Below, piece after piece: positions 12,376 to 51,948 of a DNA stretch of 56,800 nucleotides. Below the pieces are notes generated by a model. The model had not been told where the DNA came from, did no database searches, and saw nothing but the letters and a program-made list of their open reading frames with translations. Both the position numbers and the translations under genes were made by a program. Within the stretch, counting starts at the first letter, position 1. Each line of letters opens with the position of its first letter. Source of the stretch: Ruminococcus sp. (GTDB lineage: Bacteria; Bacillota_A; Clostridia; Oscillospirales; Ruminococcaceae). Location: NCBI GenBank assembly GCA_017480485.1, contig JAFVAN010000024.1, positions 1 to 56,800 on the forward strand, written 5' to 3'.

Positions 12376-12459
12376 ATAATCTCTCCTCTCAAAAAAATAT
12401 TAAGTCCAATTGCTTGCACAGTTAAACATTGCAATCAACTCCTTTTTATGATATACTAT

Positions 12460-35712: not shown

Positions 35713-36618
35713 TTAACCGATCTGTGTTATCACAAGGTGAGCGGAGACCGGTCTCGTTCCGCCGTCTAAAGGCGTAACGGTGATTGCTGCGGCATTGCCG
35801 GCAGGATTGCGGACAGTTAAAACCGAGTCTACGCTTTCAGTTTCAACAATGCACATACCAATTATCTGTGACGTTCCGGTAGCTCTTCCGACTACGGTGT
35901 ATTCAAGGTCCTCTCCGTTCAAGGTCAGCAGAAGCTGTCCGGCTTGCGTTATACCTACATGAAAAAGCACCTGATAGACTCCAATAGCTGCAAGTGTGAA
36001 TGAGCTGGCTCCTGCTCTTGCGATACCACTGCTGCTGTTGGGGCCGTCCTGCGGAAAGCTTACATCTGTACCCGGTGCGACCGTTGCCGAATTATCCGGC
36101 GGCATCAGAGCATAAAAATCCGCATAGCCAAGCACACCGCCGGGAATTCCCTGCGGCCCCGGCTCTCCTGCTGGGCCCTGGGGGCCAGTTTCGCCTGCCG
36201 GGCCCTGGGGGCCGGTTTCACCTGCCGGGCCCTGGGGGCCGGTTTCGCCTGCTGGGCCCTGGGGGCCGGTTTCGCCTGCTGGGCCCTGGGGGCCGGTTTC
36301 GCCTGCTGGGCCCTGGGGGCCGGTTTCGCCTGCCGGGCCCTGGGGGCCGGTTTCACCTACTGGGCCTTGGGGACCGGTTGCTCCTACTGGGCCTTGGGGA
36401 CCGGTTTCACCCGCTGGGCCTTGGGGACCGGTTGCTCCTATAGGTCCCCGGGGGCCAACAGCGCCTCGCTGGCCGGCCTGACCAGCAGGACCCTGCGGAC
36501 CTGTTTCGCCTGCCGGACCCTGCGAGCCTGTTGCCCCTCTCAGCCCTCTTGGTCCGGGCGGTCCCGGAGGACCAGGAGGTCCGGAACAGCAGCACTTTCT
36601 GTTATTATCATTATTCAT
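35713..36618 (-). CDS. Collagen-like protein with BclA-type C-terminal domain
   Basis: A 301-residue protein. After an N-terminal RKCCCSG, residues about 13-170 are continuous Gly-X-Y triplets ([13 protein letters not shown], then repeated GPQGPAGET), which should form a collagen triple helix. The last 130 residues ([24 protein letters not shown] to the end) resemble the BclA/TNF-like trimerising domain of spore-surface filaments. The ATG at 36618 follows GGAGG. It lies 650 bp from the SASP gene, strengthening a spore link. No signal peptide, as in BclA proteins. Confidence 0.85.
36150..36500 (-). repeat. Collagen-coding 9-residue/27-bp tandem repeats
   Basis: At least eleven near-identical 27-bp units encode [13 protein letters not shown] triplets. 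Blocks of almost identical copies (36170-36350) next to more varied ones show recent expansion and make the length likely to vary. Confidence 0.85.
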
Positions 36619-36868
36619 AATTGCCTCCAAATCCGATTTTATTGCAGCCTGAAACACTGCTTAACGTATTCGCGATGCAATCAATACCTACATATCAAAC
36701 TAAAGCTGATCGTTCTGCTGATCGGTGTAAATAAATACATTTTCATAAAACGGGTGAATGTCTTATCTTCGTTATTCTCAATACATAATATGCAAAGATC
36801 AACAAACTGCTACAAAGCAATACTGTCCGATACAGACTTCGGCTCATTTCTGTCATCTACCAAATCAG

Positions 36869-37260: not shown

Positions 37261-37323
37261 GCAAGTCGCGTGATCACTCGCAAGCTCGTTTACAACCGTG
37301 TGATGTGAGGGGGCTCCCTCGCG
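37261..37323 (+). repeat. Dispersed intergenic repeat, copy D
   Basis: Fourth copy, with GATCACTCGC in place of GAGCACTCGC. Preceded by GTGTACACAGCGTGTACCAC, the equivalent of the palindrome next to copy B. Confidence 0.85.
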
Positions 37324-37355
37324 ATACGGTGGCACGAATATGGGCTGGGTGGGTT
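37321..37355 (+). repeat. 35-bp direct repeat, copy 1
   Basis: Starts GCGATACGGTGGCACGAATA and is identical to 37515-37549 except one base. It directly extends dispersed repeat copy D. Confidence 0.85.
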
Positions 37356-37514
37356 GCCTGTTTTTTCTTTCTGCTTATGAGAAAGTGTCACAGCACTATT
37401 AAGTGATCAATACCGATTTGTTCTGCAACACCTTTTGTTTGACAAATTGCGATCATGGGGTATTATACGGTAAAACAATTTGCGATTTTGGGGGAAACGC
37501 TATTAAATAAAAAT

Positions 37515-37549
37515 GCGATACGGTGGCACGAATATAGGCTGGGTGGGTT
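37515..37549 (+). repeat. 35-bp direct repeat, copy 2
   Basis: Second copy, 34 of 35 bases identical to 37321-37355. The roughly 160 bases between the copies are A+T-rich and match nothing else in the window. Confidence 0.85.
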
Positions 37550-37600
37550 TGCTGCTTTATTATAAGACGTTCTATTGTTGTCAGCACTCAAAAACTGCTC

Positions 37601-37629: not shown

Positions 37630-37658
37630 ATATTCATCAATGAAACGAGGTGAGCGCC

Positions 37659-38699
37659 GTGAGCAATGATGATCTGCTTATAATGTCCAAAGACACCGTT
37701 ACCGCAAAGTGGGAGGACGGCAGACTTATTGTTGTCAACGAGCAGCTGCTGCCGCTGTTTTTAAGGCGTGTTCACAATGTTTATCTATGGCTTGAGACCC
37801 GGGCCATTGACAGTCACCGGGCTAACTCAAGGCTGCTGAAAAAGGCTCTCCGTCTGAAGGAGAAGGACGACGCCTCGACTGCACTTAAAATGAACGGCGC
37901 AACTATCACCGACACCTACTGGGTCAAGTCGGCTGACAGCAGGCTCTGCTATGCAGATGTCCGTTTCGGAGACGATTATTTCTCGGAGCTTGCCCTTAAA
38001 GGAAGCTATGACAGCTTCAACAAGGCTGCCGAAAGGCCTGACAGCAGGACACCCGAGCTAACTAACACGGGAAGCTTTGAAAAATGCTGGAAGCTCAAAA
38101 ACGGGAAATGGTATATGTACAAGTGCGCCACTCCCGACGAGCAGTTCACCGAGCTCTTTGTATGCCGTCTGGGGCGGCTTCTCGAAATGAAAATGGCTGA
38201 TTATCAGCTTGGCGACGGCTGCGTTATCTCAGAGGACTACACTGCTTCCGCCTCGGTGAATTTTGAGCCAGCCCTTGCATTTATGGGAGACAACGAAGAC
38301 TACGAAGCGGTCATAGAGGAGCTCAACAGGCTCTGCCCTCAGGCGGTCCCCGATTATATCAGAATGATATTTCTTGACACGGTCTGCGCTAACCCTGACA
38401 GGCACACAAGCAATTTCGGACTTCTCCGCGACCCCGACACAGGCGAGTTATTGGGACTTGCGCCCTGCTTTGATCACAACATGGCACTGATCTCCCGCGG
38501 CAAGCCTGCAATGCCCACTGAAAACGATCTGCTGATAAAGCTTTTCAATGAGGTGATAGAGGATCACCCAGAGTACAAGCAGTATATCCCACTGCTGACA
38601 AATGAAGCACTGCAAGAGGCGGCTGACATTCCGGTTAATGCGGATAAGGGATATGCGGTTGAGCTTGTTAAGGCGAGGTATGGGTTGATAAGGAAGTAG
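37659..38699 (+). CDS. HipA-like kinase-domain protein
   Basis: A 346-residue protein with a HipA/CtkA-type catalytic half. The key segment is NPDRHTSNFGLLRDPDTGE (kinase catalytic Asp and Asn), followed by LAPCFDHNMALI (metal-binding Asp). The N-terminal part holds FLRRVHNVYLWLETRAID and a WKLKNGKWYMYKC ATP-site-like strand. It lacks a HipB partner, so it may be a stand-alone kinase rather than a toxin. GTG at 37659 follows GAGGTGA. It sits directly upstream of the T7SS-like island but has its own promoter and terminator. Confidence 0.75.
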   Translation: MSNDDLLIMSKDTVTAKWEDGRLIVVNEQLLPLFLRRVHNVYLWLETRAIDSHRANSRLLKKALRLKEKDDASTALKMNGATITDTYWVKSADSRLCYADVRFGDDYFSELALKGSYDSFNKAAERPDSRTPELTNTGSFEKCWKLKNGKWYMYKCATPDEQFTELFVCRLGRLLEMKMADYQLGDGCVISEDYTASASVNFEPALAFMGDNEDYEAVIEELNRLCPQAVPDYIRMIFLDTVCANPDRHTSNFGLLRDPDTGELLGLAPCFDHNMALISRGKPAMPTENDLLIKLFNEVIEDHPEYKQYIPLLTNEALQEAADIPVNADKGYAVELVKARYGLIRK

Positions 38700-38723: not shown

Positions 38724-38750
38724 AAGGCACAGCTGGGCTGTGCCTTTTTT
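38724..38750 (+). terminator. Terminator of the HipA-like gene
   Basis: Stem AAGGCACAGC / GCTGTGCCTT with a 3-base loop followed by T-run. Confidence 0.9.
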
Positions 38751-38960
38751 GTAAGTGAAAAGGTCATGAGCTATCATAGTCCTCACCTTGCTTTGGGACA
38801 ATAAGCTTTACCTTAGATCTCAGAATAAAGAAAGGTGAAATGTAATAAACTGACGGATAAGTTTATACTCTCTATAACAATTTAGTGTTAGTTGAACTAC
38901 AACACTTCGATTATTTTGTGTAATTTTTTTAGAATAACACAGCTAAATTACTAAAAAATG

Positions 38961-38989
38961 TTGAAATTTACTTAATTGTGTGATATAAT
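38961..38989 (+). promoter_or_regulatory. Promoter of the T7SS-like operon
   Basis: TTGAAA (38961-38966), 17-bp spacer, extended -10 TGATATAAT (TATAAT at 38984-38989), 138 bases before the first gene. Confidence 0.75.
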
Positions 38990-39029
38990 TATTATACTTT
39001 TTAAGGTTTGATCAGCGTTTCAGTTTTAT

Positions 39030-39086
39030 ACAACTACGCTAAATGTAAAAAGCATCTGAATAATGCTATGTCGATTGTGTAGTTGT
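39030..39086 (+). promoter_or_regulatory. Structured leader of the T7SS-like operon
   Basis: ACAACTAC (39030-39037) pairs perfectly with GTAGTTGT (39079-39086). Inside, AGCAT (39051-39055) pairs with ATGCT (39063-39067). A T-rich run follows (TTTCTTT), so it could act as a weak attenuator. Confidence 0.45.
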
Positions 39087-39126
39087 TTCTTTATAAAATC
39101 AAAAATTGATAAGGAAGTAATAAATT

Positions 39127-42100
39127 ATGAAGAGACCTTCTACGCTTTATGAACTTAATAAAGAATACATAGATGACAATAAGGCTGCAAAAGAGCTTGA
39201 GAACAGCATTTACAATATTAGATCCAATAAAAACCAAGATACGGAAACACTGATTTCCAATATTAACGAGTTAATGCGGTTAAATCAAAAATACAAGCTT
39301 GTCGATCAAAATGATCTGGTGGTGTCGGATGTTATTGATTTATGTAATCAGTATACAATGTGTGTTACTTCGATAAAAAAATATCAAAGCGCTTTGAACG
39401 CTAAAGCTCTGGGACATAAAGAAGTTGAAGAAGTCGTTAAAGAACAGCAAAAGTTTGATAATATAAAGAAGCGCTTCAGGAACAATTATGATATTAATTC
39501 TCAGGAGATCATTGATGATATTATTGTCAAGTGTTTAAGTGCTCTGTACGAAAAGAAAAAACAAGGTCTTGAAGCGTATAAGCAACAGGCACGAGACATT
39601 ATGAATTCTGAGCCGATCCTACTGAAAAAAGATGATCCTATAAATAAGAATGATACTTTACCCACCAAGCTTATTGTGGCAAAAACCACTGTTCATAAAA
39701 CGGATCTTGAGCTATTAAAAGTTATTGGTGTCTCTTTTGATCAGGAATCGATATACAGTGATATTCAAGGCAACGGCAATATATGGTTGGACTATGTTCG
39801 TTCGGATAGCAGTGCTGCTGATATTGATCGATTTGTTATTTCCTATATTACCAAGTATATTGAATCTTTTCCCTTAGGCGCTGTACATGTGAGCATTGTT
39901 GATAAAAATCCATCAGCTGCTTATAATGCTATGATCAATGCCTTTCAAAGTGATGCAAACGGGGATAACGCCAGAGACACTGTCCAGGTATTTGACAAAC
40001 TGAAAACTGTAACAGATAAGTGCAAGCAGCACGGTGTAGATATATTCAAGAAATTCAAATCATCTGATCAGACTCTTTTTGATATATACAATACTGACAA
40101 AAGTGATTACTTTGAACTTATTGTATTAAAAGGCGGAATTAAAGACAGAGATTATTCCGCTTCAGATATACAGGATGATATTAGAGCCCTGACCAAGGCA
40201 AAAGAACGCGCACATAGAAGCGGCATCCGATTTCTGATCATCAATGAGGTAAAGACTGAAGAGCGGGAAAGATCAAAAGAGAGAATGCTCGAAGAGGAGA
40301 TAAAGAAAAACTGCGGAATGGTTTTGAGCTATAATAATGGGACATTTGAGTATAACAAGGAAAAAGTTGAATGCTTGAAGATCTATGGAGATGTTGAAAC
40401 TTATGTTAGGTTCAGGACTCCTAAGCTTGCGGAAATGATAAACAAGATGAAGAAAGACTTGGTAGAAATAAAAGACATTTCTTATACAAGCACTTCATTT
40501 AATGATGATATTATGTTTATCCCTGTCGGAAAGAGCGGAGTTGATACAGTGGAGCTTCCATTCAGCTGTAACAATTCGGTCTCTTCTACCGAGGCAGGCT
40601 GTATTGGATATATGGTTATCGGTGCGAGCGGCTATGGAAAATCATCTTTATTTCATAGTATTGTTATCAATGGTTGCCTAAAGCATTCGCCGAATGATCT
40701 GAATTTCTGGCTCCTGGATTTCAAAGACGGAAGTGCGTCATCAAAATACGAGAGCGGCATCCCACACATAAAGTATATTGCATCCAGAAATAAAGTTGAA
40801 GATGCTGACTGTTTATTCCAAATGGTTCTTGAAGAGATGACCAGAAGAACAGATGCGTTTAACAAAATAGGCGTAAATAATATTGTTGAGTATAATAAAA
40901 AATCACCTGATCAACTGCCGAGGATAATAATTATTATTGACGAAATACAGGAGATTTTCCTGGATGTGAGTGGTGAATACAATTACAATGAGAGTATAAA
41001 GAATAAAATAGCATCTATTTCCAGCCGTATGAGATCTGCCGGTATGCATTTTGTAATGATTGCACAGAATCTAAGCATAGGAAGATCTAATGTGCTTCAA
41101 GAAGCATTCATGCTATCAGCAAGTGGCAGAATATGTTTTCGAGTTGATCAGGATGCTCTTACTGGTTCGGGGTTTAAACAGGCGTTCCGCGATCATCAAG
41201 AAGAGATCGCAAATCTAAAGTCGGGAGAAGTGTATATAAGCTATAATAACGGCGGTTCTATAAGGAAAGCCAAAATATCATTTGCTTCAGCTGATGAATT
41301 CGGCGAGTACTTGAAAGAGATCCGTGAAAAATATCCAAACCAAAGAAACACAAAAGTAATTGGTTCTGAAACCAGGCTTTCATTAACTGATAAATTACAG
41401 GGCCGTTCCGAAACATACTATGATGTTATTAGCCATGCACGTAATCGATCTGATCGCTTTGCTTCCGTCATCGGAGAAGATATATACAGAATGGAACCGA
41501 TTGGGGTCGATTTTTCTACAGATCGAAATTCATCACTGCTCTTTGTAGGAACGAATAAGCGTATCTCAGCCTCCTTATGCTCTTCCGTTGCGATTTCTGT
41601 TTCTAAGCTAAATGCAGATGTTTATACTTTTAATGCAAACAGAGATCAGCTATTTATGACCGTCAGAAAAGCATTAGAAAACCCTGTTCAAAGCTGTAAA
41701 CCTATTGAATTTTCCGGAGTGATTGGTAAATTGTATTCTGTTTTCATTGAAAGGCAGAATGAGCTTCAGTATCTTGACGATGATGAAACTCCTGATTATT
41801 CACCGATCTTCCTTATTGTAAACGACTATTATGAAATAGAATCAGTAAAGAAAAACGAGCAGATAACTCTTAATGGAACAGATAATCATCCTGACCAAGA
41901 AGATCCTGGACGTATGACTTTTGATCTGAATTTTAGCAATGATATGCAAAATGAAGACCCACAAGAAAAATATCCTGTTCAGGAATTAGTTTCTATTCTA
42001 TTGAACGAAGGCTACAAAACAAACATTCACGTTGTGCTTTCTATTTCGAGCGTATTGACAAGAGGATATGGTGATGATCTTATGGCCGCTGAGATGATTC

Positions 42101-42291
42101 TGTTTAATGATTGTGACTTAGATCAATTACCGATCAACCATGATAGAAGATTAAAAGGGCTGCTGGAAAGCATTCACATGCCCTCTGGTGATGAGACCTT
42201 AGCTATTAGAGTAAGCAGTGGCGGCAGATTCAGCAAGATAAGACCGCTGATCTACGATAATGATGATGTAAAGAAAATAGGATCTTTGTAA
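39127..42291 (+). CDS. FtsK/EssC-like ATPase of the T7SS-like system
   Basis: A 1054-residue FtsK/SpoIIIE-type P-loop ATPase, presumed motor of the system. Residues 1-165 are charged and coiled-coil-like in place of the FHA domains of EssC. Residues about 190-450 look like a divergent ATPase-like module without P-loop. The active module has Walker A GASGYGKS (499-506), Walker B RIIIIIDE (599-606) and the FtsK-family RSAGMHFVMIAQNLS. A third module has a degenerate loop GTNKRIS (808-814), like the inactive C-terminal domains of EssC. I see no membrane helix, unlike EssC. The ATG follows AAGGAAG. First gene of the operon. Confidence 0.85.
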   Translation: MKRPSTLYELNKEYIDDNKAAKELENSIYNIRSNKNQDTETLISNINELMRLNQKYKLVDQNDLVVSDVIDLCNQYTMCVTSIKKYQSALNAKALGHKEVEEVVKEQQKFDNIKKRFRNNYDINSQEIIDDIIVKCLSALYEKKKQGLEAYKQQARDIMNSEPILLKKDDPINKNDTLPTKLIVAKTTVHKTDLELLKVIGVSFDQESIYSDIQGNGNIWLDYVRSDSSAADIDRFVISYITKYIESFPLGAVHVSIVDKNPSAAYNAMINAFQSDANGDNARDTVQVFDKLKTVTDKCKQHGVDIFKKFKSSDQTLFDIYNTDKSDYFELIVLKGGIKDRDYSASDIQDDIRALTKAKERAHRSGIRFLIINEVKTEERERSKERMLEEEIKKNCGMVLSYNNGTFEYNKEKVECLKIYGDVETYVRFRTPKLAEMINKMKKDLVEIKDISYTSTSFNDDIMFIPVGKSGVDTVELPFSCNNSVSSTEAGCIGYMVIGASGYGKSSLFHSIVINGCLKHSPNDLNFWLLDFKDGSASSKYESGIPHIKYIASRNKVEDADCLFQMVLEEMTRRTDAFNKIGVNNIVEYNKKSPDQLPRIIIIIDEIQEIFLDVSGEYNYNESIKNKIASISSRMRSAGMHFVMIAQNLSIGRSNVLQEAFMLSASGRICFRVDQDALTGSGFKQAFRDHQEEIANLKSGEVYISYNNGGSIRKAKISFASADEFGEYLKEIREKYPNQRNTKVIGSETRLSLTDKLQGRSETYYDVISHARNRSDRFASVIGEDIYRMEPIGVDFSTDRNSSLLFVGTNKRISASLCSSVAISVSKLNADVYTFNANRDQLFMTVRKALENPVQSCKPIEFSGVIGKLYSVFIERQNELQYLDDDETPDYSPIFLIVNDYYEIESVKKNEQITLNGTDNHPDQEDPGRMTFDLNFSNDMQNEDPQEKYPVQELVSILLNEGYKTNIHVVLSISSVLTRGYGDDLMAAEMILFNDCDLDQLPINHDRRLKGLLESIHMPSGDETLAIRVSSGGRFSKIRPLIYDNDDVKKIGSL

Positions 42292-42316
42292 AAGCTTATA
42301 TGAGGAGCGATGAAAA

Positions 42317-42928
42317 ATGAAAAGGCTTAATGTAAATATTGAGGAAGTAAACATAAAGGGTGACATCGACCAACTTTCTCAAGCTGTGATCGTTATTGAT
42401 AAGGCTCTGCAATCTATTGCTGACAATACGGATAAGCTATATAGCAAGCTTATGAATTTTCAATCAACCAATCTCGGTAAAACTTATAATAACATTGTAC
42501 AGACCACGGCAGAGCTCAGGAGTGAATTATACTATTCATCTGCAGAGATGAACGATCTGCAGCGCCAGCTTATCGACTATCAAAACAAGCTTTATAGGTA
42601 TGAAGGAATAAACAGATCCGCTCCCTCACCGAATAAGTTCTTTGTTCAGAAAAGAAAGCTCAGCACGAGCACCAATGGCTTTATGTTTTCAAGAAAAGAT
42701 ATGCAAGACCTGATAGCTATGATAAAAAGCTTTGTCGGTTCAGTTGAAAGCAATCTGAAAAATATTGTTAAAGCTAAAGACTCGGCATCGCATTTCTGGA
42801 AGGACAGACAATATAAAGACTTCTCTTCATTTATTGATGATGTTAATAATAAAACACAAAGAGCAATAAAAAAATATGAAGGATTTATAGCTGATATTGA
42901 CAACAAGGTGAAGGAGTTGAGTGAATAA
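42317..42928 (+). CDS. WXG100-like helical protein with C-terminal FWKD motif
   Basis: A 203-residue helical protein. The first 95 residues are coiled-coil-like (LSQAVIVIDKALQSIADN), a short Pro/Ser linker follows, and the last 75 residues resemble an ESAT-6-type hairpin with Trp161 in HFWKDRQYKDFSSF at the turn. It could be a two-module WXG100-like protein or an LXG-associated partner. ATG with GAGGAG, 25 bp after the ATPase gene, in the same operon. Function is inferred from context. Confidence 0.6.
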   Translation: MKRLNVNIEEVNIKGDIDQLSQAVIVIDKALQSIADNTDKLYSKLMNFQSTNLGKTYNNIVQTTAELRSELYYSSAEMNDLQRQLIDYQNKLYRYEGINRSAPSPNKFFVQKRKLSTSTNGFMFSRKDMQDLIAMIKSFVGSVESNLKNIVKAKDSASHFWKDRQYKDFSSFIDDVNNKTQRAIKKYEGFIADIDNKVKELSE

Positions 42929-43180
42929 ATGGATCTAAGATTTGATTCAAAAGCTGCATTGGATCTGATAAAGCATATGGATATTTATTATAAAGACATG
43001 GGAAGAGAGATCAAACATATTATCACTCTGACCGAACGCTCAAGCAGATGGAACGACGATCAGAATGCAGCTTTTTTTAATAACATCAAAGAGATAGTAG
43101 AAGAACTAAAGGAAACAATCAAGATACAAGTAGATTATAGAAACACTTACTATGACAGAGTAAAAGAACTTAGGGAGTGA
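42929..43180 (+). CDS. Small WXG100-like protein (W-x-D)
   Basis: An 83-residue all-helical protein the size of ESAT-6/WXG100 proteins. Trp41 in SSRWNDDQNAAFF lies at the expected turn between two helices, but the motif is W-N-D instead of W-x-G. A helix with YRNTYYDRVKEL ends the protein. The ATG abuts the preceding stop (TAAATG) with AAGGAG upstream. Predicted secreted substrate or effector chaperone. Confidence 0.65.
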   Translation: MDLRFDSKAALDLIKHMDIYYKDMGREIKHIITLTERSSRWNDDQNAAFFNNIKEIVEELKETIKIQVDYRNTYYDRVKELRE

Positions 43181-43186
43181 GCTTAG

Positions 43187-43480
43187 ATGAAAAGGCACTA
43201 TGATATGTGCGTAGATTTAAACACATTAAACGATCTTCACGTCGGCCTTAAGAGAATAAAACTCAATATAGAGAGCTCTGTATCACAGATGGACAGGGCG
43301 ATGGGATATAGTCAAGATTATCTTTCAGGAGAACAATTTGAAAAGGCAAGAGCTATCACAGATTCATGCTTAGAACGTAACAAGATCACAGTAAAAAACA
43401 TTGAACACGCATTAAAATACTTGGAAGAGCTGATGGAGCAGACAGAAAGATACAATAAGCTTATGTATCAACGGAGGTAA
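43187..43480 (+). CDS. Small helical ESAT-6-like protein
   Basis: A 97-residue helical protein of WXG100 size. No Trp is present; the turn region reads YSQDYLSGEQFEKAR around residue 45. Helices before (LHVGLKRIKLNIESSVSQM) and after (TVKNIEHALKYLEELMEQ) suggest a hairpin. The ATG follows GGGAG, 6 bp after the previous gene. Comparable to Lap-type partners of LXG effectors. Confidence 0.55.
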   Translation: MKRHYDMCVDLNTLNDLHVGLKRIKLNIESSVSQMDRAMGYSQDYLSGEQFEKARAITDSCLERNKITVKNIEHALKYLEELMEQTERYNKLMYQRR

Positions 43481-43481
43481 T

Positions 43482-43751
43482 ATGAAAACAGTAGATCTGA
43501 CTAAGCTATATGCGAATGATAAAGAACTCATCAGGTTGATAGAAGAACTAAAAAAAAGATATAAATGTAATTGGGATGACGCGGTACATGATTCGTATAA
43601 TAATTACATTAAAGAGATAGTCCACTACTCCTCCATGATACACAAAGAATGTGATAGTATTAAAGAAACAAATGCTGAGATCGGATCAGTAAACATTGAA
43701 GAAATGAAGAATACAATAAATGATCTTTGCCGAAGGGTTGATAGCTTATGA
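43482..43751 (+). CDS. Small WXG100-like protein (W-x-D)
   Basis: An 89-residue helical protein. Trp31 in CNWDDAVHDSYNNYI sits at the start of the second helix, again W-D-D where W-x-G is expected. ATG follows GGAGG, one base after the previous stop. The 3' end overlaps the LXG-like toxin start by 4 bp (ATGA), so the two are translationally coupled, suggesting a chaperone-effector pair. Confidence 0.65.
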   Translation: MKTVDLTKLYANDKELIRLIEELKKRYKCNWDDAVHDSYNNYIKEIVHYSSMIHKECDSIKETNAEIGSVNIEEMKNTINDLCRRVDSL

Positions 43752-45175
43752 ATATATATGCAAAAGTTGATCATGACGATGTTAAAGCTTTTCGCCTTAC
43801 TTCTGATGCGATCAAAGAATACGCTGATAAGCTTGATAGCAGTTTTGAACTCATTGAACTGATGACAAGATCGGTATCTGTTACAATAAACGATCTGGAT
43901 TCATACTCCCACAAACTCGAGAATGCCAAAAAAACAGTTGATAATGAACAGGATAGAATTAGAGAAAGACTCCGTGCATTGGAAGATGAGTGTGAGGAAA
44001 TAGAAGACAGTATAGATGATGTTAAATCTGATCTGCAATGTACTGATAAAACAATCACAATGACAGACAGCGAAGGTGAAGAATTTGAAGAAACAAATCC
44101 TGAATACACTAAGCTGATGGACAAGCTTCAAGACCTTGAAGACGATCTGGATAACGTAGAGAGCAAATTATCAGATACCAGAAGTGAGCTTAACAGGGTA
44201 ATTTATCTCAGAGATGAGATAATTGAACAAGACCGTTTAGCCAGAAATGCAGTTGACCTTTTGGATGACTGTAAACGAAAAGTAAATCGTTCGCTAAACG
44301 AATTAAGAAACTATTCTGCTAACATAAGAGAAAGCAGCACCTCAGCGGTCGATACACTTATTCAAATTGAAAAAACAATAGAAGAATATCGAAAGATAAA
44401 GATCAGACTTAATCCTGCCCAAATCAGCCCTCTGGATTATTCTTCCTTTACAACGGATAGAACTATTAGTTCCCCTCTTATCAATGTAGAAAAAATAACT
44501 ATAAACATTAATAATAAGGAAGCTCATAACGCTTCGGCTATGACGTTAAAAAAGCAAAACGATCCCGCAGCAAATGAACACGAGCATACCAAGGTAGATC
44601 AAAATGGGCATATTTGTGAATTTGAAGGTAGAACTTATGGAGGAAAGTATAACTCCTATGATGAAAGACTTTCATACACGCCAAAAGATAATTCCGTATA
44701 TGGATATTACGAAAGCGAAAGAGGCGAGTCAAAGTTTATTCCTTCTTCCAAAACCGTCGAGGGAATAGAAATAATTGCAATTTTAAGCAATTATGATTTA
44801 GACGGTATTATATATAGAAATGCCGAGCCTGATTTTGAAGTATGTTCAGAAGCAGTAGTTGAAATAGATGATATGACAGAAAACAGATATGATTATCTCA
44901 AAGGAAGTGTAAAAAAGCCGGGCAATTTTTCTCAAGCAGATATAAAGCTTGCAAAGAAGTGGTCTGATGAAAAGAAAAATTCCAAAAGAGATTGGACACC
45001 TTCTGATGTTCGGACCTATCGACAGTCAAATCGTCTGACCTGGCATGAAAAATGTGATACAAAAACAATGGTGATGGTAAGAAGAGAAATAAATGAATAC
45101 TTCAAACACATTGGCGGAGTATCTGAGTGTAGAGTAAGAGATGGAGGTATAAAAGATGGCGGATTTGATGACTAA
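43748..45175 (+). CDS. LXG-like polymorphic toxin with HNH-type nuclease domain
   Basis: A 475-residue modular toxin. Residues 1-230 form a long coiled-coil LXG-like region (RERLRALEDECEEIEDS). Residues about 280-400 are a pretoxin-like region (FEGRTYGGKYNSYDERLSY). The end (about 400-475) matches HNH/GHH-type toxin nucleases: LTWHEKCDTKTM with His433 and Glu434, VMVRREINEYF, and HIGGVSE with His454. Such domains cut DNA or RNA in rival cells. It overlaps the upstream small gene by 4 bp and the immunity gene by 20 bp. Lacks signal peptide, as expected for type VII substrates. Confidence 0.75.
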   Translation: MNIYAKVDHDDVKAFRLTSDAIKEYADKLDSSFELIELMTRSVSVTINDLDSYSHKLENAKKTVDNEQDRIRERLRALEDECEEIEDSIDDVKSDLQCTDKTITMTDSEGEEFEETNPEYTKLMDKLQDLEDDLDNVESKLSDTRSELNRVIYLRDEIIEQDRLARNAVDLLDDCKRKVNRSLNELRNYSANIRESSTSAVDTLIQIEKTIEEYRKIKIRLNPAQISPLDYSSFTTDRTISSPLINVEKITININNKEAHNASAMTLKKQNDPAANEHEHTKVDQNGHICEFEGRTYGGKYNSYDERLSYTPKDNSVYGYYESERGESKFIPSSKTVEGIEIIAILSNYDLDGIIYRNAEPDFEVCSEAVVEIDDMTENRYDYLKGSVKKPGNFSQADIKLAKKWSDEKKNSKRDWTPSDVRTYRQSNRLTWHEKCDTKTMVMVRREINEYFKHIGGVSECRVRDGGIKDGGFDD

Positions 45176-45539
45176 TAAACAATTAAATATCTGGGGCAGA
45201 GATTTTGATCTGCCTGTAGTGTTTCAGAATTTTTCAGATGAGCCCATATCTAATCTGGAAAGAGAAACAGCCCAAAAATTAGGAGTCTCTGATTTTAATA
45301 CAGCTAAGCACCATCTTACAGAATTCATCCTTAAACACAACAAGGAAGAGCTTGGAGCTTCAAAAATAGATAATATATTCAAATATGTAATTCCAAAGTC
45401 TATCATAATATGTAATAATAAGCACAATAGACTCTTCGCTTTGATGTGCAACTACAGATTTGATATGGAACACGGTTTAGCAATAGTGTTTGAGAATGAG
45501 TCCTATAAAGCAGTCGGATATCAAGATATCATCTTATAA
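45156..45539 (+). CDS. Immunity protein, DUF6985-like
   Basis: A 127-residue cytosolic protein predicted to neutralise the preceding nuclease. It starts inside the toxin gene (20-bp overlap) with GGAGG before the ATG. The pattern LPVVFQNFSDEPISNLERET, then MCNYRFDMEHGLAIVFENES and GYQDIIL at the end, resembles DUF6985-type immunity proteins as I recall them. The acidic C-terminal part could mask a basic nuclease surface. Binding is inferred. Confidence 0.7.
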   Translation: MADLMTNKQLNIWGRDFDLPVVFQNFSDEPISNLERETAQKLGVSDFNTAKHHLTEFILKHNKEELGASKIDNIFKYVIPKSIIICNNKHNRLFALMCNYRFDMEHGLAIVFENESYKAVGYQDIIL

Positions 45540-45565
45540 ATAATTAGCTATGGGGTGTTAATAAA

Positions 45566-47953
45566 ATGACATCATATAAAGAGTATAGTGTATACTTGAC
45601 TAATTCCAGGAACCTGATACATGAGCTTGCTTCGTATGATAGGGCTAAATACAGATTTCTTGTTGACGAGTTATGTGAAAAGCTAAAAAATGCTATAATT
45701 GACATAACACAGCTTGAACCGTATGAAAAGGCTATAAAAAGCGCTTGCATCAAATATAATGACAATACTATCAAAACAACTGATTATATGCATGACATGG
45801 ACGAACAATCGCTTAATTTGTTCATTGAAACTTGTAACCAACAAGAAAAGCTACTAAGAAGATTCGATGAGCAAAAGTGGCGTGTCCCTGATATCAGCTT
45901 CCGAGATGTTGCAAGGCTAAAAGAAAACACATTAAACCGTGTTAAAGCAAGTAATCTTAAAACTAAGTTGACTTTTGCAGATAAACAACTCACAAACACA
46001 TTGAAAAAAGCTCAAGCCGAATACAGCAACGAATATTGTGAACAGGCGAGCTATGAGTTAAAGCAGCTAAAGGATTTGATAGATGAATGCAAGATCAATA
46101 GTATCAGTATTTCGAGTATCAAGAATAAGGATGTTAAAAAAGTATCCCAAAAGATAAATGAGATCAAAAATATCATTCGCGCTGTTGAACAATGCCATAA
46201 GAAAATATACGAAACAGATCAGCAAATCTATGCATTGATAACAAGTCCTACCGCGACTGACCCGATATCCAGCCATAATATAGTTTCGCTCTGCAATTTA
46301 CAGAAGGTTGATCTGTATGATTGTAAAGCCCACTCTTATCATTTGCCAAATAAATTAAAAGTAAATGAATTGGATCAAACAATAGCGTTCTATTCTAAAT
46401 ACACAATCACTGAGCGCATAAAGGAATTAGATAACAAAATAGATAGCGAACTTGAGGCAGCAAAAAGAACATCAGATCTTAAAAATTGCGAGCAAGCAAG
46501 GGCATATCTTTATCAGATGCAGCAGTTGGTCTATTTAGGCAAAAACAATGGACTTGCTGTTCAGTTGACAAGAAACAACGAAAAAACGGTCAGTGATTGC
46601 GAAACAACTATAAAGGCATCGATAAAAAAGAACGAAGACATTGCTGCAGAGATCAATGCCCTGTACTCAGAGCTTTTTACCAGAGTTTCAGATCAGGATA
46701 TCACGCATGATAAATGCCAGACAATAATCAATACATGTGATAAGCTGTTGCCTCTGGTGGAACGTTTCAGTGCAGTTGAAGGGAACAATCTATCAATAAG
46801 TCCCGAATATATCAACAACTTAAAGGAACAATTCAGTTTATATCCTCAAATGATAGACCTAAATGAGGAACTGGAGATAAAGCCTAATAGAATAAATAAT
46901 ACTGGCTCTATTAATATTCTTCTTGAAAAATGTAAGCAGCAATCTGATAATTTCAAAACTTGCATCAAGCGTCATTGGATGATCCCATCTGATTTCAATG
47001 ACCCTAAGCCACTGCAAGAAAAGCTTAATGAAAGAAAACAAGCCCTCCAAAACAAAGAAGCTAATAGGAAGAAGCTTAAATCCTTCTTATGCAAGGCAAT
47101 AGTGGTAGTTGTCTTCGCTTCTGTAGCTGTTTTTTGTGTAATTAAGTATGTTAATAAAAAGAATGAAGAAAAGAATAAGGATATGGTTTCCATACCTATA
47201 GACCTGTCAGAAACGGTAAATGAAGATCATGAGAGTGTAAAAAAACAATTTGAAGATGCTGGCTTCACAAGTATTACAGAAACAATAACAGATAAGGGCT
47301 ATTATCCGAGCGGTTCGGTCGTTGAAGTAAGAGTTGAAGGAAACACTGATTACAAAAAAGGAACCAAGGTAAAAAAAGATACTGCTGTTACAATAACTAT
47401 TGCCAGTGAAGAACGGATCGACGTTACATCCGTTGTAAATAAATGGCTTAGTAAGGAAACGCTTTCAGCTGCTTTTGACAAAAATGATATGAAAAAAGAT
47501 TTTGCTGAAGCAGGGCTTGACCCTGGTAAAGTTGAAATAGCTCATACATTCATCTTTGATAAAGAAAAAGAAAGAATGATAGATCATGTTGAGCTGGGCG
47601 GCATAAACTACGAAAGCGGAAAATGCTATGTTGACAAACAAGCAACTGTAGTATATCGAACTTTCATATCAACGATAATAGTTGGAACCAGCGCAGAAGA
47701 CTACATAGATAAAAATTATTCCTCCGTAGTTGATGAGCTTAAAGAAAAAGGATTCACTAATATAAGATTATTAAGAAAAAATGATTTGTCTACAGGCTGG
47801 CTTGAAAAAGAAGGAGCCATTGATTCTATTAGCATTGATGGTGATGATGATTTTAGTGATGACGATTACTATTATTATGACGATGAAATAATAATAATTG
47901 TGCATACCTTTAAGAAAAAAGGATGTGAAGATATTACAGAAACAGTAGACTGA
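45566..47953 (+). CDS. Single-pass membrane protein with PASTA-like repeats
   Basis: A 795-residue protein, last large gene of the operon. Residues 1-506 are cytosolic and mostly helical or coiled-coil. About 507-530 is one hydrophobic helix (AIVVVVFASVAVFCVI). About 540-795 lies outside and holds two to three PASTA-like repeats (VKKQFEDAGFTSITETITDK with a KKGTKVKKD end; SSVVDELKEKGFTNIRLL) and an acidic/Tyr stretch. Topology recalls EssB or PASTA kinases, yet no kinase motif is seen. A likely membrane anchor or channel component for the ATPase. The ATG has a weak site. Confidence 0.7.
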   Translation: MTSYKEYSVYLTNSRNLIHELASYDRAKYRFLVDELCEKLKNAIIDITQLEPYEKAIKSACIKYNDNTIKTTDYMHDMDEQSLNLFIETCNQQEKLLRRFDEQKWRVPDISFRDVARLKENTLNRVKASNLKTKLTFADKQLTNTLKKAQAEYSNEYCEQASYELKQLKDLIDECKINSISISSIKNKDVKKVSQKINEIKNIIRAVEQCHKKIYETDQQIYALITSPTATDPISSHNIVSLCNLQKVDLYDCKAHSYHLPNKLKVNELDQTIAFYSKYTITERIKELDNKIDSELEAAKRTSDLKNCEQARAYLYQMQQLVYLGKNNGLAVQLTRNNEKTVSDCETTIKASIKKNEDIAAEINALYSELFTRVSDQDITHDKCQTIINTCDKLLPLVERFSAVEGNNLSISPEYINNLKEQFSLYPQMIDLNEELEIKPNRINNTGSINILLEKCKQQSDNFKTCIKRHWMIPSDFNDPKPLQEKLNERKQALQNKEANRKKLKSFLCKAIVVVVFASVAVFCVIKYVNKKNEEKNKDMVSIPIDLSETVNEDHESVKKQFEDAGFTSITETITDKGYYPSGSVVEVRVEGNTDYKKGTKVKKDTAVTITIASEERIDVTSVVNKWLSKETLSAAFDKNDMKKDFAEAGLDPGKVEIAHTFIFDKEKERMIDHVELGGINYESGKCYVDKQATVVYRTFISTIIVGTSAEDYIDKNYSSVVDELKEKGFTNIRLLRKNDLSTGWLEKEGAIDSISIDGDDDFSDDDYYYYDDEIIIIVHTFKKKGCEDITETVD

Positions 47954-48033
47954 TGGACGTTCTTGCACGCATCTGCTACGTTCTTGAATGCGATCCCCAG
48001 GAGCTTATCAGATACGGAGACCATAGCAAATAA
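47953..48033 (+). pseudogene. C-terminal stub of an XRE/Cro-type repressor
   Basis: A 26-codon frame overlapping the preceding stop (TGATG). The peptide VLARICYVLECDPQELI matches the last helices of Cro/CI-type helix-turn-helix proteins. The DNA-binding half is absent. G+C content rises here, so it marks the right edge of the island. Confidence 0.5.
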
Positions 48034-48036: not shown

Positions 48037-48062
48037 AAGCCCCGCTTCCTGCGGGGCTCTTT
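48037..48062 (+). terminator. Terminator at the island's right edge
   Basis: Stem AGCCCCGC / GCGGGGCT followed by CTTTG. Probably ends the T7SS-like operon. Confidence 0.7.
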
Positions 48063-48069: not shown

Positions 48070-48378
48070 TCAAAGCCTGTCATTCAGCTTTTCCTTCACC
48101 CATTCCTCATTCACGAAGCCTACCCGCTCCTTCAGGGCGTCAGTGTGCAGCGTTATTATCCTGCTGCTGTCAGCCGATACTTTCCTTCCCTTTGTCCAGC
48201 TGCCCTTGTCGATCAGCAGTGAGCTCCTGCATGACCTGTGAAGCTTGCTCGTGCGTATCGGGTACACTACCGCAAGCCCGGGCATCACAGCTGCCACAAG
48301 CACCATTCTCCTGCCGGAATAAACCTCTCCCTGCAGGTCTGCAAAATATACTTCTCCAACATTGATAATATTCTTCAT
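48070..48378 (-). CDS. PemK/MazF-type toxin
   Basis: A 102-residue MazF-family endoribonuclease-like protein. Pattern: VGEVYFADLQGEVYSGRRMV (substrate loop and catalytic Arg), VYPIRTSKL, and a Ser/Thr-rich KVSADSSRIITLHTDAL. The ATG has AGGAGG. No antitoxin gene is adjacent, so it is an orphan or acts through a distant partner. It is convergent to the T7SS-like operon. Confidence 0.65.
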   Translation of the reverse strand: MKNIINVGEVYFADLQGEVYSGRRMVLVAAVMPGLAVVYPIRTSKLHRSCRSSLLIDKGSWTKGRKVSADSSRIITLHTDALKERVGFVNEEWVKEKLNDRL

Positions 48379-48524: not shown

Positions 48525-49108
48525 AATTTCCTTGGATATTCAAGCTGTTCGAGGAGGAAAGCGAACACAACTACATATATGTATGCTTTCATATCCTTGC
48601 GATCTACAGCGGTTTCCGGCTTGGAGAGCTTATGGGGCTGGAGTGGAAGGACATTAACTTTGATACCAATGTTGTGACGGTCAACAGAACGTGCCTTTAT
48701 TCAAAAGAGCGTGGTCACTACACGGAAACTCCAAAAACCGCACAGAGCATGAGAAGCCTGAAGCTGCCGCAGGACGTTATGGACGTACTGAAAAAATGGC
48801 AGGGCTTGCAGGACATTCAGCGCAAAAAAGTCGGCTCGAAATGGATCGAGACAGACAGAGTTTTCACCAAGTGGAACGGGCTTACTCTTGACCGTTCGGC
48901 ACCCGGCAGGTATTTCAAAAAGCTCTGTGAGAGAACTGGAATGAGGTATGTATCAAATCACTCATGGCGGCATCTGAACGCTACGCTGCTCATCAACAGC
49001 GGTATTGATGTCAAGACTGTGCAGTCCTGTCTTGGACATAGCGTTGCGACAACGACTGTAAACACCTCAAAAGGACACACCCCCACCCACCGCAGCCATA
49101 TTCGATAA
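48525..49108 (+). pseudogene. Tyrosine integrase, C-terminal fragment
   Basis: Catalytic half only: ILAIYSGFRLGELMGLEWKD (Arg I), then HSWRHLNATLL (His/Arg) and QSCLGHSVATTTVNT, where the Tyr nucleophile region is lost because the frame diverges into HTPTHRSHIR. No start codon in the 5' part of the frame. A remnant of a mobile element flanking the T7SS-like island. Confidence 0.75.
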
Positions 49109-49113
49109 AAAGC

Positions 49114-49155
49114 AAAGGTTCAGCGACCTATCAAAGCCGCTGAACCTTTATTATT
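49114..49155 (+). terminator. Hairpin terminator
   Basis: Stem AAAGGTTCAGCG / CGCTGAACCTTT with a 12-base loop and T-rich tail. Confidence 0.8.
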
Positions 49156-49247
49156 TTGTTCTATTATTCTCAATCTCCGCCACTGTGAGTTTCTATTTTG
49201 TGTCGTACCCGCCTTGACCGCATCAAGCACCTCGATCATGTGTGCGG

Positions 49248-49991
49248 TCATCTTCGTCCGGATTTCATAGCCTTGAGCACCCTGCATATCTCGTCCACCT
49301 CGGTCGGGGTCAGCTCGTCGAAGCGGTCAAGCTCCGACTTGACTGTGTTTATCATCGTGATGTGGGTACTGTGCCGTCTGCGTTCCATGAAAAACGAGGT
49401 CAGCGTGCTGGTCAGCGAGCCTATCAATCCGATCCCTACCAACATCAGTACCGATGCGATTATCCTGCCATACATCGTCGTGGGCGAGATATCTCCGTAG
49501 CCTACAGTGGTTGCAGTCACGAACGCCCACCATATGCCGTCGGCTATCTCCATGCCTTCGGCATAGTGTATCAGCACACCGCCTGAAATCACCGTCATCA
49601 GCGCGGCAAATACCACGTATTTGAAGCCGTTGGTGTTGTAGAAGGCTTTAAGCTTTCTTAGCGGTCGTGACAGGAACGCAACTGCCCGCACAAGCCCGAG
49701 AATGCTCAACATAATGTCGAGCCGGGTGTCTGTAAGCGGAGGCAGGATACCGTGTATCGGTATCAACGCGATAACGTCCCAGTAATTCATCGAGAAGAAT
49801 TTTCGCTTGCTTTCAGACTTGACGATCCTCACTATGAGGTCAGCAGCGAATACGAGATACAGCGTAATAAACATCGCACGCTCGATGCTGGTCAGCCGCA
49901 CTGCCGAGTCTATCACCACCAATACTGCCGCCATGCAAGCCAGTGCACCGAAGATCATATCATAGGCTCTATGGAGCCTTGCGCTTTTCAT
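49248..49991 (-). CDS. Potassium-channel-type ion channel
   Basis: A 247-residue voltage-gated-like channel. Several membrane segments precede the pore, and the selectivity filter reads TATTVGYGDISP, the TVGYG signature of K+ channels. A helix with alternating Arg/Lys (RAVAFLSRPLRKLKAF) resembles an S4 segment. The C-terminus is a cytosolic tail. ATG at 49991 follows GAGGTGG. It is 10 bp downstream of mgtE, so both form one operon under the M-box-like leader. Confidence 0.88.
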   Translation of the reverse strand: MKSARLHRAYDMIFGALACMAAVLVVIDSAVRLTSIERAMFITLYLVFAADLIVRIVKSESKRKFFSMNYWDVIALIPIHGILPPLTDTRLDIMLSILGLVRAVAFLSRPLRKLKAFYNTNGFKYVVFAALMTVISGGVLIHYAEGMEIADGIWWAFVTATTVGYGDISPTTMYGRIIASVLMLVGIGLIGSLTSTLTSFFMERRRHSTHITMINTVKSELDRFDELTPTEVDEICRVLKAMKSGRR

Positions 49992-50001
49992 ACATACCAC
50001 C

Positions 50002-51423
50002 TCAGTTTAAATGCAGGACATTCAGCAGAAGCACCCAGCTCATTCCGTAGTAGGTGACTACTGCCACAAGGTCGTTGACCGTTGTTATCAGCGGGCCGGA
50101 GGCCACCGCGGGATCGACCTTTATCCTCTTGAAGAACAGCGGGATAAGTGTGCCGACCGAACTGGATATCACCATCGCGATGATAAGCGACACCCCGATG
50201 CAGCCGGAAATCGCAAAGGAATCCAACGCCCCGCGACCCTTGAACAGCATGATATAAAATCCCACGAGCACAAAGGATATCACGCCCAGCAGCAGACCGT
50301 TGCACAGCCCGACCTTCATCTCCTTGCCGACAAGGTGAAGCTTCTGACCGAAGGTGAGGTTTTCGTCGGTGAGTACGCGGATAGTCACCGCCAGCGACTG
50401 AGTGCCGACATTTCCCGCCATGTCGAGTATCAGCGACTGGAATGCCATGATGAGCGTAAGCTGCGCTATCACCTTCTCAAACGCGCCCACCACGCCCGAC
50501 ACCAGCATCCCCAGCCCCAGCAGCACGAGCAGCCACGGCAGGCGCTTCTTCATGCTCTCCCTGAGCGGCTCCTTTAAGTCCTCCTCGGCGGTCAGACCTG
50601 CGAGACGCGCATAGTCCTCGCCCATCTCGTCATCGACAGCCTCGATCATGCTCTGGGAGGTAATGACCCCCAGCAGCTTGTTTCTGTTGTCGAGCACCGG
50701 TATCAGGTTCTCGGAATAGTCCTTCAGCTTTTCGATGCAGTCCTCGGTCTCCTCGTGGGCGTATACATACGGAAAGGACGTGACGATAAGCTTGCCGAGA
50801 GGTGTGGTGCTCCGAGCGGTTATGAGATCCTTGAGGTCAATGGCGCCGTAGAACTCGCCGTCCTCCTCCACCACGAAGATGGTCGAAATGTTGTCGTTCT
50901 CCTCCGCCTGGCGCACGAGCTCGTTCATCGCCTGCTTTACGCTCAGCCCTTCGGTAACGGAGATATAATTGGTAGTCATGCGGCTGCCGATCTCGTCCTC
51001 GTCAAAGGAGGCGATAAGGCTTATCTCAGCGGCGGTATCGGGACTGAGAAGCTCAATGATGAGCCCTCGCTTAGTCTTTTCTATCTCATGAAGGACGTTT
51101 GCGGCAGTATCGGTCTCGAGCGCTGAGACGACCTCAGCAGCCTTGGAAATATCCATCTCGTCGAGATATGTTCCCGCCGTTGCCTCGTCGGAAAACTCGA
51201 AGATCTCCGCCAGCATATCTGGCGTACATATCCTGAAAAGCTTCTTTCGCTCTGTAGCACCGAGTGTCTCCAGCGCGTCGGCAATGTCGCTGCCGTGGTA
51301 GTCCTCCAGCTTCTGCTTCATGACCCTCGGCGAATCGCTGCCGCGTATCATCGCCGCTATCTCTGCGGCTCGGTCAGGCATTGCGCCGGGCTCAACGGCT
51401 GTTATTCTGATATCCTCTGACAT
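50002..51423 (-). CDS. mgtE: Magnesium transporter MgtE
   Basis: A 473-residue Mg2+ channel. The N domain (LETLGATERKKLFRICTPDM) and two CBS domains (TNYISVTEGLSVKQAMNELV and LIPVLDNRNKLLGVITSQSM) sense cytosolic Mg2+, and the last 150 residues hold five membrane helices. ATG at 51423 follows GTGAGGG, a ribosome-binding site inside a hairpin (CCCTCAC/GTGAGGG, 51431-51461). It lies upstream of the K-channel-type gene. The preceding M-box-like leader fits Mg2+ control. Confidence 0.92.
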   Translation of the reverse strand: MSEDIRITAVEPGAMPDRAAEIAAMIRGSDSPRVMKQKLEDYHGSDIADALETLGATERKKLFRICTPDMLAEIFEFSDEATAGTYLDEMDISKAAEVVSALETDTAANVLHEIEKTKRGLIIELLSPDTAAEISLIASFDEDEIGSRMTTNYISVTEGLSVKQAMNELVRQAEENDNISTIFVVEEDGEFYGAIDLKDLITARSTTPLGKLIVTSFPYVYAHEETEDCIEKLKDYSENLIPVLDNRNKLLGVITSQSMIEAVDDEMGEDYARLAGLTAEEDLKEPLRESMKKRLPWLLVLLGLGMLVSGVVGAFEKVIAQLTLIMAFQSLILDMAGNVGTQSLAVTIRVLTDENLTFGQKLHLVGKEMKVGLCNGLLLGVISFVLVGFYIMLFKGRGALDSFAISGCIGVSLIIAMVISSSVGTLIPLFFKRIKVDPAVASGPLITTVNDLVAVVTYYGMSWVLLLNVLHLN

Positions 51424-51464
51424 ATTAAAACCCTCACTTTCGTTTGATACGTGATGTGAGGGCC

Positions 51465-51503
51465 GAAAAGCAAGACCCCGCCTCGGACGAGCCGAAACGG
51501 GGT
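51465..51503 (-). terminator. Leader terminator before mgtE
   Basis: On the minus strand stem ACCCCG / CGGGGT with longer imperfect pairing, then CTTGCTTTT. It stands between the M-box-like element and the mgtE start, fitting transcriptional attenuation. Confidence 0.65.
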
Positions 51504-51504
51504 T

Positions 51505-51665
51505 CATCAGCACTATATATCATCAAGGCCGTCTGCTCTCAGGACAGCGCAAGGCCAAGTGCACAGCGTGACAGCTCCGCACTCCGATTTGATACATATA
51601 ATGTGTGGCATGAAAGGCGTTTCGACCCGCAACTGTCACCGTTGTTCACTGTTTTCACCTCAGCT
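51505..51665 (-). promoter_or_regulatory. Candidate M-box (Mg2+) riboswitch
   Basis: The leader of mgtE on the minus strand contains GGTGAAAAC, CGGTGACAGTTGCGGGTCG, GTCGAAACGCC and ATATAGTGCTGATG, in the order of conserved M-box (ykoK) parts. The element is followed by a terminator and an RBS-sequestering hairpin. Family placement is from memory of the motif. Confidence 0.55.
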
Positions 51666-51688
51666 TTAATTCAATATTTTGCTTTTAT

Positions 51689-51717
51689 ATTTTATCACAT
51701 TTTAAAGGCTATGTCAA
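51689..51717 (-). promoter_or_regulatory. Promoter of mgtE-channel operon
   Basis: Minus strand TTGACA (51712-51717), 17-bp spacer, extended -10 TGATAAAAT (TAAAAT at 51689-51694). Confidence 0.8.
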
Positions 51718-51921: not shown

Positions 51922-51942
51922 AAAAAAAGAGCCTCACGGCTC
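51922..51942 (-). terminator. Terminator of the transposase remnant
   Basis: Minus strand stem GAGCC / GGCTC with a 4-base loop, then TTTTTTT. Confidence 0.65.
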
Positions 51943-51948
51943 ACTGTT

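Follow-up and report, generated by a model that had tools for sequence, protein, structure and literature searches.

An eight-gene operon related to type VII secretion systems, with a soluble EccC-like ATPase and an HNH nuclease, in a Ruminococcus sp. contig

Amongst the described type VII secretion systems (T7SSs), T7SSb comprises EssC (YukB), EsxA, EsaA, EssA, EssB and EsaB, along with LXG toxins and LXG-associated proteins (Laps). In the consulted sections of Garrett 2024 (PMC11217815), eight further subtypes, T7SSc–T7SSj, each have a membrane-bound TsxC with four NTPase domains; an ATPase and WXG100 proteins are common to them, all except T7SSd are Bacillota variants, the ubiquitin-like TsxB is likewise found in all except T7SSd, and small WXG100-related proteins are encoded beside a T7SS substrate and its immunity gene. 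Here we describe a locus in a 56 800 nt stretch of Ruminococcus sp. DNA (the window; positions 1–56 800 of contig JAFVAN010000024.1, assembly GCA_017480485.1), where positions 39127–47953 form a single A+T-rich operon of eight same-strand (+) open reading frames (ORFs) with short gaps or overlaps. These encode, in order, an ATPase, proteins of 203, 83, 97 and 89 amino acids (aa), a toxin, an immunity protein and a membrane protein with PASTA-like repeats (the PASTA protein). An initial annotation of the sequence had already placed an eight-gene operon here, and the tight spacing of its genes and the recurrence of their order elsewhere agree with that. As the ATPase has no membrane span, and searches of three related genomes that carry the operon gave no match to EssB or YukD, the operon is neither an ordinary T7SSb nor one of T7SSc–j as described; it is a T7SS-related variant outside both. 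Its layout is apparently undescribed, as had been suspected, since no description was found in the openly licensed PubMed Central literature. We see an even chance that the operon is a T7SS-like export module complete in itself, in which a soluble motor would drive a toxin out of the cell.

A comparison of gene order in other Clostridia, suggested in the initial annotation, found all eight genes in the identical order at three further loci, in Pseudobutyrivibrio sp. MD2005, Butyrivibrio sp. LC3010 and one Lachnospiraceae metagenome-assembled genome (L001–L003; reached from ATPase homologues and taken from the GTDB contig collection). Because the order recurs in all three other loci found, the arrangement is not due to chance. 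Between the window and these relatives, identity is 37–38 % for the ATPase, 36–42 % for the 203-aa, 35–41 % for the 83-aa, 37–40 % for the 97-aa and 29–39 % for the 89-aa protein, 37–38 % for the toxin, 50–51 % for the immunity protein and 22–25 % for the PASTA protein; among the three relatives it is 55–57 % (ATPase), 58–62 % (immunity protein) and 48–56 % (PASTA protein). The nuclease and immunity gene are present in all four operon loci. Distribution is sporadic, the centre genome being the sole match in sets of 397, 79, 29 and 38 genomes (one in each), and the ATPase found no match in 396 genomes of another family. In both the 397- and the 79-genome set the full-length toxin is restricted to the genome carrying the ATPase. 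Four ATPase/toxin homologue pairs agree exactly in the length of their longest contig (9021, 15461, 50240 and 12354), which suggests, short of proof, that they are linked. The most divergent ATPase homologue (P0015) lies on a 19.5 kb contig, and none of the toxin relatives listed has a contig of that length; its locus may hold other cargo, or the contig may end within it.

The EccC-like ATPase and its T7SS context

The ATPase gene (39127–42291, +; ORF calling, Pfam and a structural model) had been called FtsK/EssC-like from the sequence, and the call held. Pfam gives FtsK_SpoIIIE at E 3e-19, and the top PDB match of the model in Foldseek is T. curvata EccC (4nh0; E 2.1e-25 over 1025 columns), after which come EssC/EccC fragments and then FtsK. 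As we read the model, a helical N-domain (residues 7–159) precedes three ATPase-like domains: the first (181–441) lacks a P-loop, the second (462–735) carries Walker A at 499–507 and Walker B at D605/E606, and the third (778–1040) is degenerate. A search of 7996 candidates gave at least 15 homologues; in 15 of 15 of these Walker A, D605 and E606 are invariant, so that the catalytic motifs are intact, and in none of the 15 is there a hydrophobic span (highest 19-residue mean, 1.57). A Pfam scan of the ATPase found no FHA domain. Its catalytic domain is 56–60 % identical from window to relatives and 77–81 % among L001–L003, and its remaining parts 25–56 %. On the evidence of the model, the motor resembles EccC in its multi-domain layout, without a membrane span.

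The match to the EssC family (TIGR03928) scores 85.8 bits against a cut-off of 778.4. Grouping with plasmid or phage partition FtsK proteins, which the initial annotation had named as the contrary outcome, was not seen: in a tree of P-loop domains the operon ATPase forms its own branch outside FtsK and also outside EssC, a tree that leaves its kinship to one or the other undecided. One could suppose that the motor handles DNA, in the manner of FtsK or TcpA, for a mobile element that also carries a toxin/antitoxin-like pair, and has no part in protein export. We regard this as very improbable, given the EccC-like multi-domain layout, a Pfam list for the ATPase that does not include the FtsK gamma domain, and hairpin and PASTA proteins linked to the motor in four loci. 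Furthermore, the ATPase had no match in 72 556 plasmid records or in viral contigs, and the toxin none in 50 697 phage records or in viral contigs; an origin from phage or plasmid partition was rejected on these same searches.

No T7SSb gene other than the EssC-like ATPase was recognized in the operon, as had been noted at the outset. In the three operon-carrying genomes (G001–G003), EssB (PF10140) and YukD (PF08817) were both absent from the matches, with positive B. subtilis controls, and no protein exceeded the cut-off for EssC (TIGR03928). Weak EssC-family matches were the operon's own ATPase and one other protein each in G001 and G002, the extra proteins grouping with FtsK, and the operon's own ATPase only in G003. 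FtsK is expected in every such bacterium; G003 is therefore either incomplete or its FtsK was missed by the search, and absences there weigh less. EsaA and EssA had no match among ten flank proteins of L001–L003 (NCBIfam), no genome-wide search for them having been made. An ordinary T7SSb whose neighbours had been missed, raised in the initial annotation as a possible outcome, is not supported in these three relatives, G003 counting for less. Like T7SSb, the operon has an FtsK-superfamily ATPase with an EssC-like multi-domain layout, small helical hairpins, a toxin with a helical front and a C-terminal nuclease, and an immunity gene; it differs in the missing FHA domains and membrane spans of its ATPase, in the lack of matches to EssB and YukD in three genomes, in having W-x-D for W-x-G, and in a single nuclease throughout the full-length toxins found.

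The same searches bear on the idea of a cargo island that relies on a T7SS encoded elsewhere, with the local ATPase as an accessory. In ESX-1, EccCb is the separate cytosolic half of EccC and works with the membrane-bound EccCa; as a soluble T7SS ATPase chain without a membrane span it is like the operon motor, for which no EccCa-like membrane-bound partner was seen. We consider such an island improbable: the three operon genomes lack matches to EssB, YukD and over-cut-off EssC (G003 again counting for less), and the extra weak EssC-family proteins of G001 and G002 group with FtsK, G003 having none. With T7SSc–j the operon shares the ATPase, small putatively WXG100-related proteins beside a substrate and, as in several of the subtypes, a single-span membrane protein. 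It differs in that its ATPase has no span, in contrast to membrane-bound TsxC, and neither a PASTA protein nor a fused hairpin pair was found in the consulted sections of the published description (PMC11217815).

The nuclease/immunity pair within and outside the operon

The toxin (43748–45175, +) has a coiled-coil front (residues ∼1–230) and a C-terminal WHH/Colicin-DNase HNH nuclease (∼290–475), with Pfam E-values of 4e-9 for Colicin-DNase and 6e-8 for WHH (37.6 and 32.7 bits against cut-offs of 25 and 25.1, respectively). Of the LXG-like toxin with an HNH-type end that had been proposed, the nuclease end stands; the best 25 of 56 families for the window toxin do not include LXG (PF04740), and neither do the best 25 of 29 for that of L001. 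The matching immunity gene was read correctly: it overlaps the toxin gene (45156–45539, +) and encodes a DUF6985-family protein (E 6e-9). Tox-WHH has been listed among toxins with T7SS export, as stated in the part consulted of Zhang 2012 (PMC3482391). The operon's nuclease is like Tox-WHH and Colicin-DNase (PF14414, PF12639) in scoring above the curated cut-offs and in its H-N-H residue order (the middle residue being N in 100 of 101 toxins and H in one), and differs in that its subfamily has W-H-E where the family name has W-H-H. Of 116 toxin relatives, 101 have the coiled-coil front (P0022–P0122, the window toxin included), and amongst these [WR]HE is found in 101/101 and I/V-[NH]...HxGG in 100/101. 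The nuclease is kept in all 101, and the front was matched by none of the other 15, in a search biased towards proteins that have words in common with the conserved nuclease, and with a front profile built from 27 of the same toxins.

In the four operon loci the nuclease is 60–68 % identical (60–64 % from window to relatives, 63–68 % among them) and the front 19–45 %, which is the reverse of the polymorphic toxin pattern of a conserved front and a variable C-terminus. The nuclease and the motor's catalytic domain are conserved to a similar degree, above the other ATPase parts; the claim that no domain of the operon is better conserved than the nuclease was rejected, as 60–64 % and 63–68 % stand against 56–60 % and 77–81 % for the catalytic domain. 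Two weak matches to the toxin front only (G129 and G312; E 1.7e-11 and 7.2e-11) were set aside as simple heptad-repeat ORFs, and the other operon genes were not present in the short loci around them (L024, L025).

The nuclease/immunity pair also occurs with other fronts in other operons. Ten non-operon nuclease places from the 397- and 79-genome searches were taken as contexts of 12–18 kb each (G057:C36 was left out); in L035 the nuclease was found by tblastn, no such ORF having been called. A HerA-type ATPase gene lies directly 5′ of the nuclease in L028, L029, L030, L033 and L037, where it encodes 1069–1217 aa, and one gene away in L032 (6/10 contexts in all); the L029 ATPase was assigned as HerA-type from its 68 % identity to that of L028. 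Next to the nuclease in L028–L033 (6/10) is a related DUF6985-like immunity gene, present in five of the six HerA contexts. Upstream in these operons, Pfam finds a dynamin-like GTPase gene in L028 and L030, and the L029 counterpart is 46 % identical to that of L028; the gene at this position encodes a Sel1/TPR protein in L037 and has no Pfam match in L033. The related nuclease of L031, with its adjacent immunity gene, starts with a lipoprotein-like signal (by eye), and the toxin domain may therefore be exported in another setting. Given its recurrence beside both HerA-type and EccC-like motors, the nuclease/immunity pair has the look of a portable cassette, found with two motor kinds of one superfamily.

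Several side observations were made in these contexts. The HerA ATPase and nuclease operons of L028, L029, L030, L033 and L037 are possibly a separate toxin or defence system. In L032 (7666–14068) the genes for a HerA ATPase, for a protein of 811 aa containing an ADP-ribosyltransferase domain, for the nuclease and for the immunity protein follow in series, an arrangement in which a single motor would serve two distinct effectors, each with a long acidic front that contains DIP repeats. An A-x-x-F-W motif at residue 35 occurs in the HerA-linked nucleases L028:9699–10400 and L029:7755–8462 and in the adjacent, weakly metallopeptidase-like L029:6707–7375 (3/147 ORFs scanned), and is possibly a targeting leader. 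Homologous WYL-type regulators (54–65 % identity; the WYL Pfam match is that of the L001 protein) are encoded near both kinds of operon, at L001:8752–9708, L002:20500–21471 and L037:14722–15672. One further family lies 3′ of both kinds, at L002:18845–20479, whose product has no Pfam or NCBIfam match, and L033:6647–7330 (32–33 % identity).

The T7SS-like anatomy, acquired island and new layout proposed in the initial annotation stood, but it had not considered an intracellular role, which is a live alternative even if we think it unlikely. The operon would then be an abortive-infection-like defence system made of T7SS parts, without export: the membrane PASTA protein would sense phage entry or damage to the envelope, and the hairpins and the soluble motor of the FtsK superfamily would retain the nuclease together with its DUF6985 inhibitor until a trigger released the nuclease to cut the cell's own DNA. 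This accords with a motor lacking a membrane span, a sporadic distribution, HipA- and PemK-like genes beside the window operon, homologous WYL regulators near both kinds of operon, and related nucleases behind HerA ATPases in six of ten contexts (five with an immunity gene, three with dynamin-like genes). Well-conserved nuclease and immunity proteins and a PASTA protein that is, from window to relatives, the least conserved of the eight would likewise fit an effector that stays fixed and a sensor that varies; within L001–L003, however, the PASTA protein does not fall below the remaining proteins, and finding the nuclease no more conserved than the motor's catalytic domain lowered our confidence. 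PADLOC matches are only generic FtsK/HerA-type, coiled-coil or weak, the L031 nuclease has its lipoprotein-like start (by eye), and the defence reading gives the hairpins and toxin front no role with a precedent elsewhere. In part from the consulted sections of Garrett 2024, we instead associate an EccC-like motor, WXG100-like hairpins and a coiled-coil toxin front with small proteins encoded beside it with export systems. HerA-Sir2 (Nezha) and HerA-DUF4297, going by their PDB titles, also have a soluble FtsK/HerA-superfamily motor adjoining a nuclease or other effector; the operon differs from these defence complexes in its EccC-like motor, hairpins, membrane PASTA protein and immunity gene. 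In its fullest form, the defence reading has an EccC-like motor off the membrane, a fused WXG100-like pair and a PASTA sensor controlling an inhibitor-held DNase as an intracellular immune machine, paralleled by the HerA/dynamin operons, whose nuclease and inhibitor are related ones, as is the WYL regulator of one HerA case; we hold this to be slightly less likely again.

Helical hairpins, the PASTA protein and a possible route of export

Four WXG100-sized helical proteins had been expected, and those of 83, 97 and 89 aa are of that size; the fourth has 203 aa and four helices. The 203-aa protein (42317–42928, +; ORF calling, WXG100 match and model) matches WXG100 at E 1e-5 and 26.2 bits, just below the curated cut-off of 27.3, and its model (predicted local distance difference test 81, predicted template modelling score 0.79, four sequences) has exactly four helices in two hairpins. 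Its invariant N52-x-G54 and W161-x-D163 lie at or beside the two hairpin turns of the model. The 83-aa W-x-D protein (42929–43180, +) matches the second half of the 203-aa protein in profile comparison (hhalign E 1.2e-5, probability 81 %), and a similar [KR][VI]xEL tail ends both. From the model and these matches, the 203-aa protein resembles a WXG100-like pair joined into a single chain, and the 83-aa protein a relative of it. In PDB profile searches, the second half of the 203-aa protein and the 83-aa family gave weak matches to HP0062, which we take to be ESAT-6-like (0.009–0.013 and 0.07–0.1, respectively), amid unrelated ones scoring the same or better. The 97-aa L-x-G protein (43187–43480, +) and the 89-aa W-x-D protein (43482–43751, +) are, by their position, candidate Lap-like toxin partners; their families found nothing meaningful in PDB profile searches, and profile comparison gave no link from them to the 83- or 203-aa families.

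The one-pass membrane protein with PASTA-like repeats that had been predicted (45566–47953, +) is confirmed by Pfam (PASTA, E 3e-5). A cytosolic part that is helix-rich (by eye) is followed by a span at ∼506–526 and extracytoplasmic PASTA-like repeats, flanking charge giving an N-in/C-out topology in five of five proteins.

Export is favoured because an EccC-like motor, hairpins, a toxin with a helical front and small partners, an immunity gene and an outward-facing PASTA protein match T7SS logic, and because a related nuclease may be exported in another setting. We infer secretion, and likewise the assembly and the target, as follows. The cytosolic part of the PASTA protein would be the membrane site on which the soluble EccC-like ATPase assembles, and the motor would be engaged by an EsxA/EsxB-like pair made up of the fused 203-aa double hairpin and the hairpin of 83 aa. 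As Lap-like partners, the 97- and 89-aa proteins would bind the coiled-coil front of the toxin, and ATP hydrolysis would drive the complex out, with the PASTA repeats positioning the machine at the peptidoglycan. The HNH nuclease would then cut the DNA of a neighbouring cell, the producer being protected by its DUF6985 protein.

A number of observations weigh against this route. A strict W-x-G is found in none of the hairpin proteins, the turns reading W-x-D, N-x-G and L-x-G, and the WXG100 C-terminal pattern, as given in the part consulted of PMC3935865, occurs in 0 of 16 tails. The fold matches of the 203-aa model are non-specific, with generic four-helix bundles on top, so that of the ESAT-6 fold expected for the small proteins we retain the two-hairpin model and the match of the 83-aa protein. 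WXG100 structures are absent from the listed fold matches; as solved WXG100 pairs are separate chains, a fold search with the fused 203-aa model tests little. For the ATPase model, VIA-align puts FtsK level. In addition, an intracellular defence role better explains the missing membrane parts, the conservation of the nuclease and the HerA parallel.

The A+T-rich island and the meaning of the operon

The G+C content is 0.34–0.38 per kb across 39–48 kb and 0.42–0.63 in the window's other kilobases, in keeping with the A+T-rich, acquired-looking island of the initial annotation. A promoter-like site (TTGAAA-17-TATAAT with TG before the second hexamer; 11/12 consensus matches) lies at 38961–38989 (+), and terminator-like hairpins from the consensus scan at 38724–38746 (+), between a HipA-like gene and the operon, and at 48038–48058 (+), 3′ of it. 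The region holds 41 promoter-like sites against 36.7 in shuffles (standard deviation 6.0), a count not above that of the shuffles, and 10 terminator-like hairpins, all consensus matches only, against 5.6 expected. The operon is flanked by the HipA-like gene (37650–38699) and a PemK/MazF-like gene (48070–48378, just under the Pfam cut-off). A 26-codon ORF just 3′ of it (47953–48033, +; read by eye), near the right edge of the A+T-rich part, is presumably the 3′ stub of an XRE-type regulator, to judge from its motif. Further downstream (48632–54693) are phage-type integrase pieces on both strands, a DDE transposase and a MobA/VirD2 relaxase, the remains of a decayed mobile element. Since the 3′ flank holds the putative XRE stub, the PemK-like gene and integrase, transposase and relaxase pieces, acquisition of the island is plausible. 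No relative close enough for an empty-site comparison turned up (best LysS identity 76 % in 391 genomes; MgtE 0/10; ATPase 0/396).

Elsewhere in the window, a 44 bp direct repeat (37321–37364 and 37515–37558; 91 % identical, 194 bp apart) lies upstream of the HipA-like gene, and a collagen-repeat protein with a BclA-like C-terminus below the cut-off is encoded at 35713–36657. A second A+T-richer stretch (10817–13709) contains a Tn916-type integrase and an HTH-containing ORF, the ORF adjoining the latter being one that we take to be an IS21-type helper.

If the operon does export its toxin, it would be, to our knowledge, the smallest T7SS-like machine; an EccC-type motor then need not be a membrane protein, and the question of the T7SS channel would become testable in eight genes. 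If it does not, T7SS parts would be tied to bacterial immunity, and were the operon truly an intracellular immune machine, ESX-type motors and hairpins would serve opposite ends, export and self-directed immunity. Either way, a nuclease/immunity cassette that goes with EccC-like as well as HerA-like motors gives a means of studying how motors of this sort select what they carry.

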